Positions 11,445 to 21,996 of a stretch of DNA of 22,470 nucleotides are shown one piece after another; within the stretch, counting starts at the first letter, position 1, and every line of letters starts with the position of its first letter. The stretch covers positions 1-22,470 of the IMG/VR virus record IMGVR_UViG_3300046003_003300; one strand, given 5' to 3'. The DNA comes from a virus. The position numbers and the translations under genes are program-made. The notes below the pieces were generated by a model. The model was not told the DNA's origin. It saw only the letters and a list, made by a program, of their open reading frames with translations, and did no database searches.

Positions 11445-11708
11445 TCAAGCGTCCGAAATGGCCCCCGGCGTAGTTACTAGCCCAGCCTCCACAAACGCGG
11501 CCAGAAGCCTATCTCTGCGCAATCTTGCCTTATCCGCGGAATGAGTCTTCATCCCGATCTTGATTCGGCTTCCGGTGAGCCCCTTGTCGCGTGTTATGGT
11601 TACGCGCATAACCCAATACCCGCTCGCGCGCCGGTGCAGGTGATGATTCGGGTCGTCCATTCGGGCGGCAGAGCATTCGACAAGGCGGAGTCTGGTTGGT
11701 GGTGTCAT
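11445..11708 (-). CDS. Small basic protein resembling an integrase arm-binding domain
   Basis: An 87-aa protein whose ATG at 11708 overlaps the stop of the zinc-finger gene by 4 nt (ATGA), which sets the start. The segment SGYWVMRVTITRDKGLTG followed by SRIKIGMKTHSADKARLRRD and a helix LLAAFVEAGLV looks like the three-strand plus helix arm-binding (AP2-like) domain found at the N-terminus of tyrosine integrases, here without any catalytic domain. It may be a DNA-binding regulator or packaging accessory, since the next gene is terS. The identity is inferred from pattern only. Confidence 0.6.
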   Translation of the reverse strand: MTPPTRLRLVECSAARMDDPNHHLHRRASGYWVMRVTITRDKGLTGSRIKIGMKTHSADKARLRRDRLLAAFVEAGLVTTPGAISDA

Positions 11709-12004
11709 GGTTTTTTGCGTGATTTCCGGTAAGCGGCCATCTTGCACGATGACCGGCAAAACTTCTGTGTCTTCATCATGACCACGAATCTTGACCCGCA
11801 TTCCCCACAGAATCGGACTTCCTCCGATGGCTCCTTGATCTCGCGCGGCTTGTAAGCGCCTCGTTTCTCCTTCTCCCGCGCCGCTTCCACGTTCCAGCTT
11901 TCCCGCTTCATGCCTCTGGTTGCCAGCCAGGCGTCGCACGCTCGCCCGACCGACTGGCTTAGGAATTTCATCGGCTGCGATTCGTCTATGTCAATGTCTC
12001 TCAT
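11705..12004 (-). CDS. Zinc-finger protein, first gene of the late operon
   Basis: A 99-aa protein from ATG 12004, preceded by the CAACC-rich leader ACCAACCAACACC. The N-terminal half is helical (MKFLSQSVGRACDAWLATRG). The C-terminal half is a four-Cys zinc finger: CGEC (C66, C69) and CRSSC (C83, C87), followed by the basic helix KMAAYRKSRKK. The 'FC...C..AAYR' pattern is common in small phage and bacterial nucleic-acid-binding proteins. The longer possible start at 12076 is rejected because its extra residues lie in the regulatory region and lack homologue-like character. A role as late regulator is possible but unproven. Confidence 0.7.
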   Translation of the reverse strand: MRDIDIDESQPMKFLSQSVGRACDAWLATRGMKRESWNVEAAREKEKRGAYKPREIKEPSEEVRFCGECGSRFVVMMKTQKFCRSSCKMAAYRKSRKKP

Positions 12005-12088
12005 GGTGTTGGTTGGTGATGCGTCAAGGATTGCCAGATTGGCCCCGATGGCAAGCGGTTTTTCTAACCGTTGCAAAGTAACGGACTA

Positions 12089-12107
12089 GGTAACGGTCGC
12101 TGTTACC
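12089..12107. promoter_or_regulatory. Inverted-repeat operator candidate
   Basis: GGTAAC at 12089-12094 and GTTACC at 12102-12107 are perfect inverted copies separated by 7 bp, giving a 19-bp dyad with half-site centres about 13 bp apart. This geometry suits a dimeric helix-turn-helix protein. It lies about 85-100 bp upstream of the first late gene. The small HTH protein encoded at 20381-20572 is a possible ligand, but this is a guess. Confidence 0.45.
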
Positions 12108-12183
12108 ACGCAAGTCATTGGAATTCAAGCCTTTGCCCGCCTGAGAGAGAGAGTAACAGAAAAATGTACATAATAATAATATA

Positions 12184-12230
12184 GCGGGCGCGCCCGCGCC
12201 CACACACCCGCGCCCACACCCGCGCCCCCA
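12184..12230 (-). repeat. GC palindrome plus short tandem repeat with G-quadruplex potential
   Basis: A perfect 14-bp palindrome GCGGGCGCGCCCGC (12184-12197) runs into three copies of a CCCGCGCCCACA-type unit (12193, 12207, 12219; the last is CCCGCGCCCCCA). On the minus strand this gives six tracts of at least three G (12193-12195, 12199-12201, 12207-12209, 12213-12215, 12219-12221, 12225-12229) with loops of 3, 5, 3, 3 and 3 nt, a textbook G-quadruplex pattern. It sits beside the AT-rich tract and among the GTAAC boxes. Confidence 0.75.
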
Positions 12231-12330
12231 AGCGCCTCTACAGCGGACGGTGCTGTTACCGACCGATTCCGGCGCAAAAACACTGTGATTGCAACAAGTT
12301 ACGAATAACAAAACCGGTTACGGTGGTAAC

Positions 12331-12364
12331 AAAAAGCCCCGAAATGCGCGTTGCACTCCGGGGC
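12331..12364 (-). terminator. Intrinsic terminator ending the early/replication operon
   Basis: On the minus strand GCCCCG (12364-12359) pairs with CGGGGC (12341-12336). An inner GTGC/GCGC stem extends the helix, and the run TTTTT (12335-12331) follows at once. It lies about 56 nt after the primase stop codon. On the plus strand the stem is followed by GGTTTT, so weak activity in that direction is possible. It separates the replication genes from the late control region. Confidence 0.8.
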
Positions 12365-12419
12365 GGTTTTGGTTCAAACGGTCGTTTGAAACTTTGTTTT
12401 GCTGCCGATTTTCCGAATT

Positions 12420-15059
12420 TCACACCGGAATTTCCACCGCTCTTTGCCTCACATGCGATCCAAAAGCCATCGTTTCCACCCGCTTTGCACCTTTGACGCG
12501 CTCCAATTGCAGCTTCCACTTTGCCCCTGCCCATGCCGTGTCGGTGAAGATTTTCTCCAATAACTGGTGACGGTTGGCGACAAATAGCGCCTCGCCTTCT
12601 AGCTTCATCCCGTGCCTGAGTAGGGTCTTTCGGAACTCATCACGGCGGAAGTTCTCTGCCTCGACTGGCGTGTATTCCGGCAGCGCGTGAATCTCTGCGA
12701 TGATCTCACTGACAGACATGGTTGCGCCGTGTCCTTGAATCTCAAACCGGATTGGAGCGGCGAACAGGTGAGCCAGGCATTGATTCTCGTCGTTGTCAAC
12801 GTCTTCCGACCTGAAGCCGGACCAGTCCTGCTGTGCCATCCATGAGCGCGCCGCCTGCTTCGTGATTTCCTTGCCGCTGGTCAACGAGTATGCACCGGCA
12901 AGTAGCGTGCCGATTTGGTCTGCGCTGCGCTTGTCGCCGGTGAATTCGACAGCGACCGATGAGAATGTTTCCGTGTTGGTGTTGATCGTTTTGGCATGCC
13001 TGAGTGACCGGCTTCGGATTCGCTCACAATAGCCATCTGAGCCGACCGTGTCACGCCATAGGGACTTGATGCGGTCGAAGTCCTCCTGCGCGTATGGACC
13101 TGTATTCTTGCGCAGCGGCAGCACCGTCACGCGGCTGGTGTCGGCTTTCTTGACCGCGGCGACGCCGATGCTGGCGAAAAGGAACATGGAACGGATCATG
13201 TAAGTGATTGACCCGCCCGATGCCGTCCCCTTGACGATTCCTGCGCCGGTTTCCGTTGACGCTTGGCGGGCGAGTTCTAAAACACCGTTAAACCGGATTT
13301 GGCTTGCTCGGTCTTCGCTCTCTGCCTCGTCAAATACCACCGGCAGCGCGTCGCTGCCCAAATGACCGCGTATCCCGGCCTCGCTGGTGTTGCCCTGAAC
13401 ATGCAGCGCGGTGCGCCCAACAAGCGGGTGAATGATGTTCGCCACCGTCCACGACTTGCCGCTGCCCGATGGACCAGTAACCCACAAATGCGGACGCCAC
13501 CCGAGCGCCCCGCAGATAGGAGCGAGCGCAATCCACCCGGCAAGGAGTTTCCCGAATAGCGGTTGCTCCCAAGATAGCAACTCGCACAATTCAATCAGCC
13601 GGGCAGCTTGCGCGTTCGTGGCAACCTCGGCAGAATCCACGGGTATTTCCAGCGCGCCTTCGTAGATTGCCCGAACGGCGCTTGAAAACGTCGGTATGTC
13701 AACCTCGCGACCGTTAACAACCAGCTTATCCCCGGCGTGGAAAACCACGTCCGCGCCGTCAATCCAGCATCCGCGCCCGCGTATCCGGCGTGGGTCGAAT
13801 TTCGGCAGGGTTTGACTGCGTTGGATCAGCGCGTTGGTTGCCGCGTCCCAGTCGGCACCCTGCTTCGTCGGGTATTCAGCCTCCCAGATTTGAAGCGGGG
13901 CTAGGCGCATGAGATTGTTTTTCGAGTGCGCTGAGGCTGATAGACTCACGATTTGCTGCCCGCTGTCCGGCATGTAAAAAAATGAGTCACCGTCAACTCC
14001 CAAGAGCCGGAACGGCAAGTCTCCGATTCGGTCATCTTTCCATTTGCGCTGTGGCGGCGCTGTGGTTGCCTCAACCGGCACGGCGGTATCATCAGGGCAG
14101 TTGTATCCCGGCGGAGGTTCAGGCGCGTCCTGTGTCGGCGTGGCGGGCGGTTTGAGCCATGCCAGCAACTTCGCGCTATCCCATCCCTCCGCCACCGCGT
14201 CGGCCAAGTCCCATCCCTCCGCAACTCCGGCGGGGGGCTGGATGATACGAACCTTGCCGGCAATGCCGGAGAGCGCCCCGGCGATAGCCCGCGCCGCGTC
14301 ATGCCCGGGCGCGTCGGCATCCGGCCAAATCAGCACTTTCCGACCTGCCAGCGGTTGCCAATCGACATACCGAACGGCCTTGGATCCTCCCGGCCACGTC
14401 ACCACCACGCCGGGGCAGATAGTCCGCGCGGCGTCGGCGGCTTTCTCGCCCTCGACCACGATCACCCCGGCGTCGGGATTGTTGGCAAGCAAATCCAGCC
14501 CGTAAAGCGGGCGGGGTTTTGGGAATGATTGAAACCGCCATTCGCGCCGATCCCCTGATTGGCAGTAGGTTTGCGGCAGAATATCCTTGTGGCCTTCCGG
14601 CAGGTTGAAGCGGTGAATGTATCCGATCACCCCACCATCAGCCGTCCGGTAGGCCCAGCTTGCCGATGGCGTCCCGTGCCGCTTGTGGCGAAACACAGGC
14701 GACGGGACGCCATCCGGCACCGGCACTATCGGCAGCCAATCCTGCTTCGTTGCCGCTGGTTGCCACTCAGGCGGCGCAAGGTTGGCTTGCAGGCGGGCGT
14801 CAATCTCCCGCGCAGCCTCGGCCATCGTGCATGACCGGATAGCGGCGAGCAATCCGATAGGATCGCTCCCGCCTTGTCCGCTGGCAAAATCCTTCCAAAC
14901 CCCGGAGCGCAGATTGATGGACAATGAGCGCCCCGGTTCGCCGGACGTTGACCCTACCTTCAGTTCGTTGCCTTCGCGGTGTCCGTTAGGAAACCATTCA
15001 GCGAGGAGTGACGGAAGGGATTGCAGCGCGGCTGCGGCGATGGCTTGGAAGTCGATCAT
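12420..15059 (-). CDS. Toprim primase/helicase-type replication protein
   Basis: An 879-aa two-part replication protein. Residues 1-100 form a DNA-binding-like N-terminus related to primase zinc-binding domains but without the cysteines (INLRSGVWKDFASGQGG at 49-64). The Toprim-like domain spans about 195-275, with VVEGEKAAD (201-209) and PDADAPG (246-252). A Pro-rich linker lies at about 303-340. The DUF927-like ATPase half has Walker A GPSGSGKS (529-536), Walker B VVFDEAE (574-580) and the arginine-finger-like region DTSRVTVLPL (640-649). It probably primes and unwinds DNA at the replication fork. TAA of the upstream methyltransferase gene lies 14 nt before this ATG, with leader CCAACCCGCCAACC. 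A terminator follows. Confidence 0.85.
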   Translation of the reverse strand: MIDFQAIAAAALQSLPSLLAEWFPNGHREGNELKVGSTSGEPGRSLSINLRSGVWKDFASGQGGSDPIGLLAAIRSCTMAEAAREIDARLQANLAPPEWQPAATKQDWLPIVPVPDGVPSPVFRHKRHGTPSASWAYRTADGGVIGYIHRFNLPEGHKDILPQTYCQSGDRREWRFQSFPKPRPLYGLDLLANNPDAGVIVVEGEKAADAARTICPGVVVTWPGGSKAVRYVDWQPLAGRKVLIWPDADAPGHDAARAIAGALSGIAGKVRIIQPPAGVAEGWDLADAVAEGWDSAKLLAWLKPPATPTQDAPEPPPGYNCPDDTAVPVEATTAPPQRKWKDDRIGDLPFRLLGVDGDSFFYMPDSGQQIVSLSASAHSKNNLMRLAPLQIWEAEYPTKQGADWDAATNALIQRSQTLPKFDPRRIRGRGCWIDGADVVFHAGDKLVVNGREVDIPTFSSAVRAIYEGALEIPVDSAEVATNAQAARLIELCELLSWEQPLFGKLLAGWIALAPICGALGWRPHLWVTGPSGSGKSWTVANIIHPLVGRTALHVQGNTSEAGIRGHLGSDALPVVFDEAESEDRASQIRFNGVLELARQASTETGAGIVKGTASGGSITYMIRSMFLFASIGVAAVKKADTSRVTVLPLRKNTGPYAQEDFDRIKSLWRDTVGSDGYCERIRSRSLRHAKTINTNTETFSSVAVEFTGDKRSADQIGTLLAGAYSLTSGKEITKQAARSWMAQQDWSGFRSEDVDNDENQCLAHLFAAPIRFEIQGHGATMSVSEIIAEIHALPEYTPVEAENFRRDEFRKTLLRHGMKLEGEALFVANRHQLLEKIFTDTAWAGAKWKLQLERVKGAKRVETMAFGSHVRQRAVEIPV

Positions 15060-15073
15060 GGTTGGCGGGTTGG

Positions 15074-17794
15074 TTATTGTTGGCCCATTGGTTTTGCGCT
15101 CATAGACTCAAGCTCCGCCAAGTCGAACAGGCTCGGCATAGTTATCTCCGCTTCCGCCGCTTGGCAGTATGAGCAAGCGTCGAGGTAATAAGCGTGATTG
15201 AGTTCAAAGCCAATTCCTTTTCTGCCTTTCAGAATTGCACGGTAAGGCACGGTGCCGATCCCGGCGAACGGGTCAAACACAGTCTCACCCGGCATGGTGA
15301 ATTGCTCAATGCATCGGTCAGCGATGTCGAATTGCATAGGGCAAAGGTGCATTTCCTTGCCATGACTCCACTGCGAGGCATTTAGCGTCATCATGCGAGT
15401 GATGTCTGTCCACACGTCATCGGACCAGCTTTGCGGCTGCAAAAGCATGAACGTCACCGGCAGCATTCCAAGCGCGTCAATCGCTTCGCCGAATTTGACG
15501 TGATTCTCAAACGAATAAACAGTGTCCAAGCTGTGCGCTTTGAAAAGCTGGAATATATCAGCGTGGGTTAGTCCTTTCAGGTCGTCACATGTAAGCGGAC
15601 GGTCGCCACTGCTGCGGGTGAATCCATGTGCGTCAGTCTGCCAACGTGAGCGGCTATAAACCCGACTCTTGGTTTTCTTGTGGAATTTCACCGGAACAAT
15701 GTCTCCGCCGCACTCGCACGTTTCCGATGTGAGTTTTGCCATGTCTTTCTGAGTATATACCCGCCCGCATTCGTCGCAGATATGTTCACGGCCCGTGTAT
15801 TTCACGACAGGCTCATCCGCGTAACTATCGCTCGTTTCAGTTGGTGGTTTCCGGAACATGAGCAGATACTCCGGCATTCCTACTCCCATCTTTGAGCCGT
15901 CCTTGCATTGCTCTGTCCAACCAAGGCGATAGGTTTGATTATTCTCCCTCACCACGTCTGTTACAATGGTTTTCATGCCCATGTATGCAAAGCCATGCTT
16001 CACGAAATGGCGCGTGGTTTCCATGTGGAACGGATAGACGGTTTGAAAACCTAGCCCGGTCATGCCACCCGGCACGATGCGGTCCTTGACATGGATGATT
16101 GCCAAGCGACCAGGCTTCAATGCGCGAAGCAATGAAGGCGTCAAGTAATCCATTTGCCCGAAAAACTCTTCGTTTCCTTCGCTGTGTCCGAAGTCAGCGT
16201 AGTTCGGTGAGTATTCGTATTGAGTTGAGAACGGGATGGATGTCAGAATCATGTCGAGACTATTCTCGGCAAGCTCAGCCGTGCCTTTCACTGTATCCTC
16301 ATTGGTTAGAGCAAACCGCTCGCCTTTGCAGACAATGGCGCTATCAATGCCCATGCCTCTTGTCAGGTGTTGAGCCATTGCTGCCTGTGACAGCCCGAAT
16401 TTTTGAATAATCTCAGTCATGTTCTTAACCATAATAATGTGTTGTTGCCATTTTCTTTCGAGTGTCTTTTTAACGGCATACTCGGCTTCCGTATAGATGA
16501 TGTCTATTCTTACTTTCTTTGTTTGCAGGAATCGGTAAGTCCGGTGGATTGCTTGAATGAAATCCGCGAACTTGAACCCTATCCCCACAAAAATTTCCCA
16601 TGCGCAAAACCTTTGGAAATTGCACCCACTCCCGGCGATAACCGGCTTAGTTGATAGAGTTGCAAAGTCGCCGTTAGAGAATCCAATGATCCGACGCTCA
16701 CGCTCGTCCATATCTTGGCACCCCCAGACAGCCAGAGAGTCCGGCAACGCATCTTGAATTGCTCGGCGCTCATCTTCCAAGTCATGCCATACCAAACAAT
16801 GATCAAGCGGGTTAGATTTGCGAAGCTCTACCATCTTTTCAATCCTCTTCGCCATGCTCGCCCGTTTTTCCGCGCTTGCATCTTGCACTCCAATAGCTGC
16901 GTCCCTCATGAGCTTGCCTTGCCCCATTTTGTCGAATCCAAGGTTAGAATAATCACTTTCCACGCAATGCCAATGAACATCCATCTCTGGCAATGAATAA
17001 CCTTCATCCGTGAATCCAAGGTCGGAAGGCTTTTGCACGAATAGCGCCCAGCTTGCTACCCATAGCCAGAACTCCTCCTCCTTATGAGCGTGCAACGTGA
17101 GCTTGTCGGCTTTAGTTGAGTCTCGTTTGAAGAATCTGGTCTTGGCTTGGCTAACGTCCATAATGCCCAAGAAATCAGCGTAGCAAAGAAGCTCGATGTA
17201 TTCGTTAGGCGATGGCGTGGCAGTTGCGACAAACCGATATTTCACGGTCTTCTTGTCTCCGCGTGATCGTCCGGTTGGCCCGCCGTCTCCGGTGCATAGC
17301 AGCATGAACTCCCGAAAGGTCTTGCTGCCACCGAACCCGCGCAAGATTGCGGCCTCGTCAAGTGATACAACCAAGAACTCAGCGGGGTCCAGCTTGCCAT
17401 CCCTAACGGTCTCATAGTTGGTTAGGTAGATTCCGGTTGGACCGGCTTCTTCAATCCTGCGAATGAATTTAGGCGGTGTTTCCCATCCAAGAATCTCTGT
17501 CGCATCGCGGGCAAACTCTTGCCGCACTCCGAGCGGGCAGACGATCAATCCGCGCCCTCCTTCGTTTTCCGTGATGATCCTGGTTGTTTCTAATTGCACC
17601 ACGCTCTTTCCAAGCCCGAATGATGCAAAGCAAGCTCGCCGCCCGCCTTTTACCATCCATTCAACCATTGCTCGCTGGTGCGGCTTTAGGGCGTGATTGA
17701 TTCCTGTCGCGTCGATTGTTACTCCGTCATCGCAAGCCATGCGGACTTTGCTTTTCAGGAATTGATCGTAGTCTGTGTTTTGTTTCGTTGTCAT
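15074..17794 (-). CDS. SNF2-like helicase fused to DNA methyltransferase
   Basis: A 906-aa fusion. The N-terminal superfamily 2 helicase (about 30-450) has Walker A SFGLGKS (58-64), motif II SLDEAA (144-149, DEAA rather than DEAH), motif III-like ATATP (190-194) and motif VI QAIHRTYRFLQ (414-424). The C-terminal methyltransferase (about 485-885) has permuted order: catalytic motif IV TSIPF (518-522, Ile in place of the first Pro of SPPF) precedes the SAM-binding motif DPFAGIGT (841-848). A zinc-ribbon insert has C673, C676, C693 and C695. Such enzymes methylate adenine N6 or cytosine N4. A helicase-coupled form could modify or protect phage DNA, in concept like P1 DarB. No restriction nuclease partner is linked. 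The start is fixed by an ATGA overlap. Confidence 0.88.
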   Translation of the reverse strand: MTTKQNTDYDQFLKSKVRMACDDGVTIDATGINHALKPHQRAMVEWMVKGGRRACFASFGLGKSVVQLETTRIITENEGGRGLIVCPLGVRQEFARDATEILGWETPPKFIRRIEEAGPTGIYLTNYETVRDGKLDPAEFLVVSLDEAAILRGFGGSKTFREFMLLCTGDGGPTGRSRGDKKTVKYRFVATATPSPNEYIELLCYADFLGIMDVSQAKTRFFKRDSTKADKLTLHAHKEEEFWLWVASWALFVQKPSDLGFTDEGYSLPEMDVHWHCVESDYSNLGFDKMGQGKLMRDAAIGVQDASAEKRASMAKRIEKMVELRKSNPLDHCLVWHDLEDERRAIQDALPDSLAVWGCQDMDERERRIIGFSNGDFATLSTKPVIAGSGCNFQRFCAWEIFVGIGFKFADFIQAIHRTYRFLQTKKVRIDIIYTEAEYAVKKTLERKWQQHIIMVKNMTEIIQKFGLSQAAMAQHLTRGMGIDSAIVCKGERFALTNEDTVKGTAELAENSLDMILTSIPFSTQYEYSPNYADFGHSEGNEEFFGQMDYLTPSLLRALKPGRLAIIHVKDRIVPGGMTGLGFQTVYPFHMETTRHFVKHGFAYMGMKTIVTDVVRENNQTYRLGWTEQCKDGSKMGVGMPEYLLMFRKPPTETSDSYADEPVVKYTGREHICDECGRVYTQKDMAKLTSETCECGGDIVPVKFHKKTKSRVYSRSRWQTDAHGFTRSSGDRPLTCDDLKGLTHADIFQLFKAHSLDTVYSFENHVKFGEAIDALGMLPVTFMLLQPQSWSDDVWTDITRMMTLNASQWSHGKEMHLCPMQFDIADRCIEQFTMPGETVFDPFAGIGTVPYRAILKGRKGIGFELNHAYYLDACSYCQAAEAEITMPSLFDLAELESMSAKPMGQQ

Positions 17795-21983: not shown

Positions 21984-21996
21984 TCCGTTACGGGGA

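Follow-up and report, generated by a model that had tools for sequence, protein, structure and literature searches.

A Putative Phage Replication Origin with Two Groups of Candidate Iterons Directly Behind a Primase-Helicase Gene

Introduction

The closest described counterpart of the locus reported here is the rep-ori of SaPI/PICI elements, in which the origin comes immediately after the gene of an initiator helicase and its iterons flank an AT-rich region in two sets (Ubeda et al. 2007, cited in PMC7581432 and PMC6092414). As excerpted from the two citing papers, the iterons read by SaPI Rep come immediately after the gene that encodes it, the primase of PICIs is either fused or encoded in an adjacent gene, iteron sequences are listed for different PICIs, and the layout is described as unique to these phage-inducible islands. 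For EcCICFT073, the gene and its region were tried together on a conditional replicon (PMC6092414). In SCCmec, a chromosomal cassette, an excerpt from one of the same sources has the Cch2 protein using its C-terminal domain to bind direct repeats immediately after its operon, and places three AAGTG iterons in the putative Cch2 origin (PMC7581432). The archaeal plasmid pRN1 has an essential origin directly downstream of its primase-helicase gene, behind a terminator, and this origin is a 100-nt stem-loop without iterons (PMC4234260).

We analysed IMG/VR virus record IMGVR_UViG_3300046003_003300, a stretch of 22,470 bp (the window) whose main genes all lie on the minus strand, and in it the 415-bp gap (12005–12419, minus strand) that leads from the primase-helicase gene to the late genes. 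We consider it quite probable that this gap is the replication origin of the phage and that the eight GTWAC pentamers within it are iterons bound by the adjacent DnaG/TOPRIM primase–MCM-like helicase. The original prediction, which was made from the window alone, had offered two readings, either a replication origin next to the primase gene, with the boxes as its iterons, or sites of one regulator controlling both operons; comparison with relatives supports the former well and speaks against the latter. In the open-licence literature, covered mostly by listing, we found no paper describing this origin type in tailed phages.

Results

The Gap behind the Primase-Helicase Gene

Read on the minus strand from the primase stop codon, the order is terminator, four boxes, GC-rich tract, AT-rich tract, and four more boxes. 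All eight pentamers, the AT-rich tract, and a terminator at the upstream border had been predicted, and all were confirmed. The intrinsic terminator of the replication operon occupies 12364–12336 (minus strand; RNA fold −24.6 kcal/mol, z −4.6) and borders the putative origin; the first box lies 90 bp past the stop codon. The first group of candidate iterons comprises GTAAC at 12326–12330, a GTTAC inverted relative to it at 12317–12321, and GTTAC at 12298–12302 and 12255–12259. A GC-rich low-complexity tract (12184–12234) with a hairpin (12184–12211) comes directly before the AT-rich tract (about 12155–12184), a candidate DNA-unwinding element that is the AT-richest 30 bp within 400 bp after the primase and has four boxes on either side. 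In the second group, GTAAC at 12153–12157 adjoins the AT tract, and the last three boxes (GTTAC at 12102–12106, GTAAC at 12090–12094, and GTAAC at 12078–12082) are spaced 12 bp from neighbour to neighbour. The first small gene past the putative origin is an ORF at 11705–12004 (minus strand), outside the origin module. An Rfam search of the 415-bp region returned no family, and a search of phage records for distant DNA similarity to it returned no match.

The layout resembles the SaPI/PICI rep-ori in that a candidate initiator helicase is followed by candidate iterons in two sets around an AT tract, and it resembles pRN1 in the succession of primase-helicase gene, terminator, and putative origin, although the pRN1 origin described above lacks iterons and the plasmid's primase is not of the TOPRIM type (PMC4234260). 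It differs from the islands in two respects. The primase is of the DnaG/TOPRIM type, whereas SaPIbov1 and SaPI5 are assigned primases of the AEP family in the excerpted text (PMC7581432). In addition, a PICI is a satellite relying on a helper for virion genes, whereas the window encodes, phage-like, a Mu-type portal and both terminase subunits (a small terminase of the Sf6 type and a large subunit) with more head-region ORFs, and weak matches to tape-measure and tail-fibre proteins come from a 68-kb record of the same phage. A PICI-like layout combined with portal and terminase genes suggests a replicon that functions in the PICI manner within an element that is itself no PICI.

The replication operon of the window also contains, at 15074–17794, a fused helicase and DNA methyltransferase, and the same profile families occur in the second phage of the 68-kb record (G002, IMGVR_UViG_3300046001_005260). 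That record carries two related portal/terminase sets in tandem (12499–14145 with 54181–55818, and 15562–16911 with 57112–58467; self-hits 68–90%), which represent either neighbouring prophages that are related to each other or a joined assembly.

The pentamer is concentrated in the gap. Across the window we counted 25 GTWAC, against 16 ± 4 in shuffled sequences, and the window-wide excess is this cluster. The densest 253 bp hold eight copies, with a maximum of four among 300 Markov-simulated windows, and no other 280-bp stretch in the 68-kb record of the same phage has more than three, so that the density is not equal genome-wide. The ninth copy that had been proposed as a related site in the early leader does exist, at 21987, but it is a single copy within background. 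GC skew, suggested as a further check, was uninformative in the window and showed no turn at the region in the 68-kb record.

Close Relatives

The 68-kb record (locus L003) is 99.9% identical to the window over 20 kb, with the region unchanged; it and loci L004, L005, and L028 are the window's own phage and do not count as independent evidence. An informative comparison comes from L002 (genome G001), whose primase is 94% identical and whose region aligns at 87%. Its late genes beyond the array are unrelated, with a GpA-type terminase in place of the window's Sf6-type small terminase and other large subunit, and it has other ORFs where the window has its first small gene. The gap and its boxes are nevertheless kept, which suggests that the array is tied to the primase and not to the late genes. 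The 300 bp closest to the primase carry 22 changes, as against differences at 180 of 442 fourfold-degenerate primase sites; this non-coding stretch therefore appears to be constrained, unless it was recently exchanged. The boxes at 12326, 12317, 12255, and 12153 are retained, the box at 12298 has one base changed, and the GC-rich tract is partly changed. In the 70 bp that follow these 300 bp and contain the second box group, 24 positions are different and the sequence is re-arranged, yet L002 has four boxes here to the window's three; to judge from the alignment, boxes have re-formed where the second group diverged.

Nine independent loci have primases at least 61% identical to that of the window. 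Six of them (L023–L027 and L029) have no GTWAC behind the gene, whereas L036 has six copies, L021 eight, and L022 a weak GTTGC-type set (p 2e-4). The original prediction had held that relatives with the same gene order but no conserved boxes would count against it, and in part such relatives exist, in that several primases 61–64% identical have no boxes after the gene. For L023 and L024, in that identity range, no long AT-rich gap follows the primase, and no origin was located for L023–L027 and L029.

Repeats behind the Primase across the Family

A nine-row primase alignment led to 79 viral and 79 bacterial-genome loci, the viral set being the 79 kept of 573 relatives that passed; a scan of bacterial genome contigs with two close primases alone had yielded no relative. 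The analysis used the 150 of 158 loci with a full gene end and 300 bp downstream, together with upstream regions in 144. A 6–7-mer repeated at p ≤ 1e-5 was present within 400 bp downstream in 81 of the 150 loci, compared with 1 of 144 regions upstream and 32 of 942 windows drawn at random; the Poisson p-values are uncorrected for the number of words tried, and the comparison with control regions stands in for that correction. After thinning at 88% identity, 46 of 103 downstream regions had a repeat. When only intergenic gaps of at least 150 bp are compared, the repeat is found in 52 of 89 gaps after the primase and in 21 of 326 elsewhere (Fisher 3e-25), a conservative contrast since the control gaps may include displaced true arrays.

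The repeats differ by lineage. In a set of 49 loci, GTWAC clusters of 6–14 copies lie directly behind the primase in L036, L042, L045, L048, L060, L063, L065, L100, L101, and L102, the last two being on Verrucomicrobiales MAG contigs; the same set includes L028 and L021, with eight GTWAC each. Elsewhere another repeat takes the same place (GTTTGCA, GTATGCA, or GTCTGCA), and further downstream repeats are GTCCGCA, GTCAAC, GTGACA, CGTCACA, GTTAGA, and GTTCCCA, with GTSAC also a lineage repeat. The array architecture is common to these relatives: among 83 loci (the 81 with a repeat plus L028 and L036, with GTAAC assigned as the repeat of L021), the AT-richest tract has at least two copies on each side in 60, where 31.9 would be expected, and neighbouring copies are most often 8–12 bp apart. 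On this sequence comparison, the layout described for PICIs would now be seen in phages, with a different repeat in each lineage. In the downstream regions of L059, L046, L101, and L102, the second group of iterons is immediately preceded by a further conserved element (TTAAGGT or CAACG..TTA).

The scan has limits in both directions. The window's own boxes fail the blind 6–7-mer test (the best p, 1e-4, belongs to another word), because they share only five bases; the array was recognised instead through GTWAC, through L002 and L021 (p 5e-7), and through far relatives. No adjacent array at p ≤ 1e-5 was found in 69 of the 150 loci, including the close relatives L024–L027 and L029, and some of the 81 may be false arrays (the CATAGG of L023 was counted and is not array-like). 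In 23 of these 69, the locus has some cluster at p ≤ 1e-8 at another position. Similar-looking sites lie 0.3–5 kb downstream in L134, L090, L091, L105, and L150; we do not count displaced clusters as support, since others (e.g., those of L067, L145, and L153) may be unrelated repeats.

Arrays are present in three of seven named phages. Synechococcus phage S-H1 has seven copies of CGTTAG and Pararheinheimera phage KLER1-1 five of GCTTACA, in both cases downstream of the primase, and Acinetobacter phage Acjo_20 has its eleven copies of GTTACA, which surround AT tracts, upstream of the gene (L020:1970–2500), which indicates that the array is not confined to the 3′ side of the primase. PBb002, PY223, Dolphis, and ZRG1 showed no array beside the primase. 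Several copies of the primase-helicase occur per genome in picocyanobacteria, including Cyanobium sp. Cruz-8D1 (L115, L127, L131, L133, and L165), most with an array behind them; these are possibly integrated elements that replicate with this cassette.

The Primase-Helicase as Candidate Reader of the Boxes

The adjacent gene (12420–15059, minus strand) encodes a candidate initiator in which a DnaG-type TOPRIM primase is joined to an MCM-like AAA+ helicase and a C-terminal domain (approximately residues 755–879) that is a candidate reader of the iterons. Profiles identify the protein as a DNA primase with a TOPRIM domain, and its N-terminus matches solved DnaG primases. An AlphaFold2 model built from 72 sequences (mean pLDDT 90) has SCCmec Cch as its best Foldseek match (E 2e-9), with SaPI5 and SaPIbov1 Rep also among the matches listed. 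A PICI-type replicon would call for a self-loading helicase of the Cch/SaPI Rep kind, one that binds the iterons and brings about autonomous replication. By VIA-align, Cch scores Z 14.1 over residues 348–879, SaPI5 Rep 13.2, and MCM helicases up to 14.2, and the TOPRIM part scores Z 14.1 with T7 primase. Cch and Cch2 differ from the window protein in having no fused TOPRIM, again as excerpted (PMC7581432).

The C-terminal domain has a winged-helix-like order of helices and strands and, folded alone, a pLDDT of 93. In isolation it gave no significant Foldseek match (best E 1.5); its Z scores are weak for SaPIbov1 Rep (4.3), Cch (3.1), and heat-shock-factor domains (about 3), and the top Z belongs to sigma-factor helices. 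The fusion with a DnaG/TOPRIM primase recalls the alpha protein of phage P4, which unites TOPRIM, helicase, and an origin-binding domain in one protein; here the TOPRIM and the helicase were found, and the C-terminal match is weak. P4 has an iteron sequence of its own plus a separate crr site and differs from the present locus in both, and the nearest resemblance of the window helicase is to Cch and SaPI Rep.

The distribution of repeat types agrees with the primase tree, requiring 17 changes, and none of 300 shuffles gave fewer than 19; the tree has 105 thinned rows, 41 of them with a repeat class assigned by hand-made rules and five labels set by eye (L028, L021, L036, L100, and L022). Shared repeats are predicted best by identity in the C-terminal part (AUC 0.754, against 0.681 for the helicase and 0.605 for the primase) over 3,447 pairs uncorrected for relatedness, with the repeat words of L028, L022, L036, L062, L050, and L100 set by hand. 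In L079 and L080 the helicase parts are 93% and the C-terminal parts 77% identical, and the repeats are GTGACA and GTAACA. Taken together, the tree, the C-terminal signal, and this pair of loci make the primase-helicase the likely reader of the boxes.

Discussion

Several other explanations of the array deserve consideration. A chance cluster in a gap of odd composition has some arithmetic on its side, since without correction for composition 153 of the 1,353 windows of 415 bp in the 68-kb record contain some pentamer at least eight times, so that the count in a single genome is moderate evidence only. The region's expected number of GTWAC is 1.08, however, and eight or more arose in none of 20,000 composition-matched simulations; the boxes are conserved in L002, and distant relatives, L101, L063, L042, and L060 among them, have GTWAC clusters in the corresponding position. 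These clusters and the family-wide scan already contradict chance, as far as sequence comparison can, and we regard it as having a negligible claim. That the boxes are instead operators of a phage transcription regulator, switching the late operon and perhaps the early one, would fit a region that lies directly upstream of the late genes behind a terminator, and a single box in the early leader. We think this improbable. L002 keeps the array beside its primase with late genes that are entirely different; among 153 pairs of GTWAC loci, only 14 have any protein in common over the 6 kb downstream (6 of the 18 loci hold about 2 kb or less there); the Acjo_20 array is upstream of the primase; and the early copy is single and at background level. 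A sigma-70 late promoter in the region was also sought: the scan for sigma-70-like sites found none on the minus strand, and its sole plus-strand match points away from the late genes.

Short direct and inverted repeats around an AT tract are carried by partition and recombination sites as well, and a centromere or attP-like site beside the primase would look similar; a ParB-like gene does lie near the primase in Bordetella phage PY223. That phage shows no array beside its primase, however, and across phyla the array is linked to a replication protein, which makes such a site very improbable. The alternative to which we give somewhat more room, while still finding it unlikely, accepts the origin and assigns the boxes to another phage or host protein, with the primase-helicase no more than recruited. 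It draws on the C-terminal domain, for which no known iteron-binding domain gave a strong structural match, and on the further small proteins encoded in the window. Against it, box type tracks the primase phylogeny, and best of all the identity of the C-terminal part, and the closest folds include Cch and SaPI Rep, which are described as initiator helicases of replication operons.

If the gap is an origin read by the adjacent primase-helicase, we infer the following course of events. The primase-helicase would be made as the last gene of its operon, and the terminator would stop transcription of the replication operon, keeping it out of the origin. The C-terminal domain would then recognise the boxes, helicase rings would assemble on both groups and open the intervening AT tract, and unwinding and priming of the DNA would fall to this one protein.

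In a larger context, we hold it to be about evenly balanced whether a large family of phages, of Verrucomicrobia, Cyanobacteria, Proteobacteria, and others, replicates from a PICI-like cassette of initiator and downstream iterons that travels from phage to phage as a whole and has undergone many changes of its recognition code (GTWAC, GTSAC, GTTTGCA, GTATGCA, GTCTGCA, GTCAAC, GTTAGA, etc.), near-identical initiators such as those of L079 and L080 being natural specificity switches. Almost identical initiators with iterons that differ by one base would open the recognition code to direct tests, for which named isolates with arrays (S-H1, KLER1-1, and Acjo_20) exist. Were this so, the start of replication and the protein that reads it could be predicted, from sequence alone, in many uncultured phages, and the PICI rep-ori layout would be that of a phage replicon that satellites share or have inherited.
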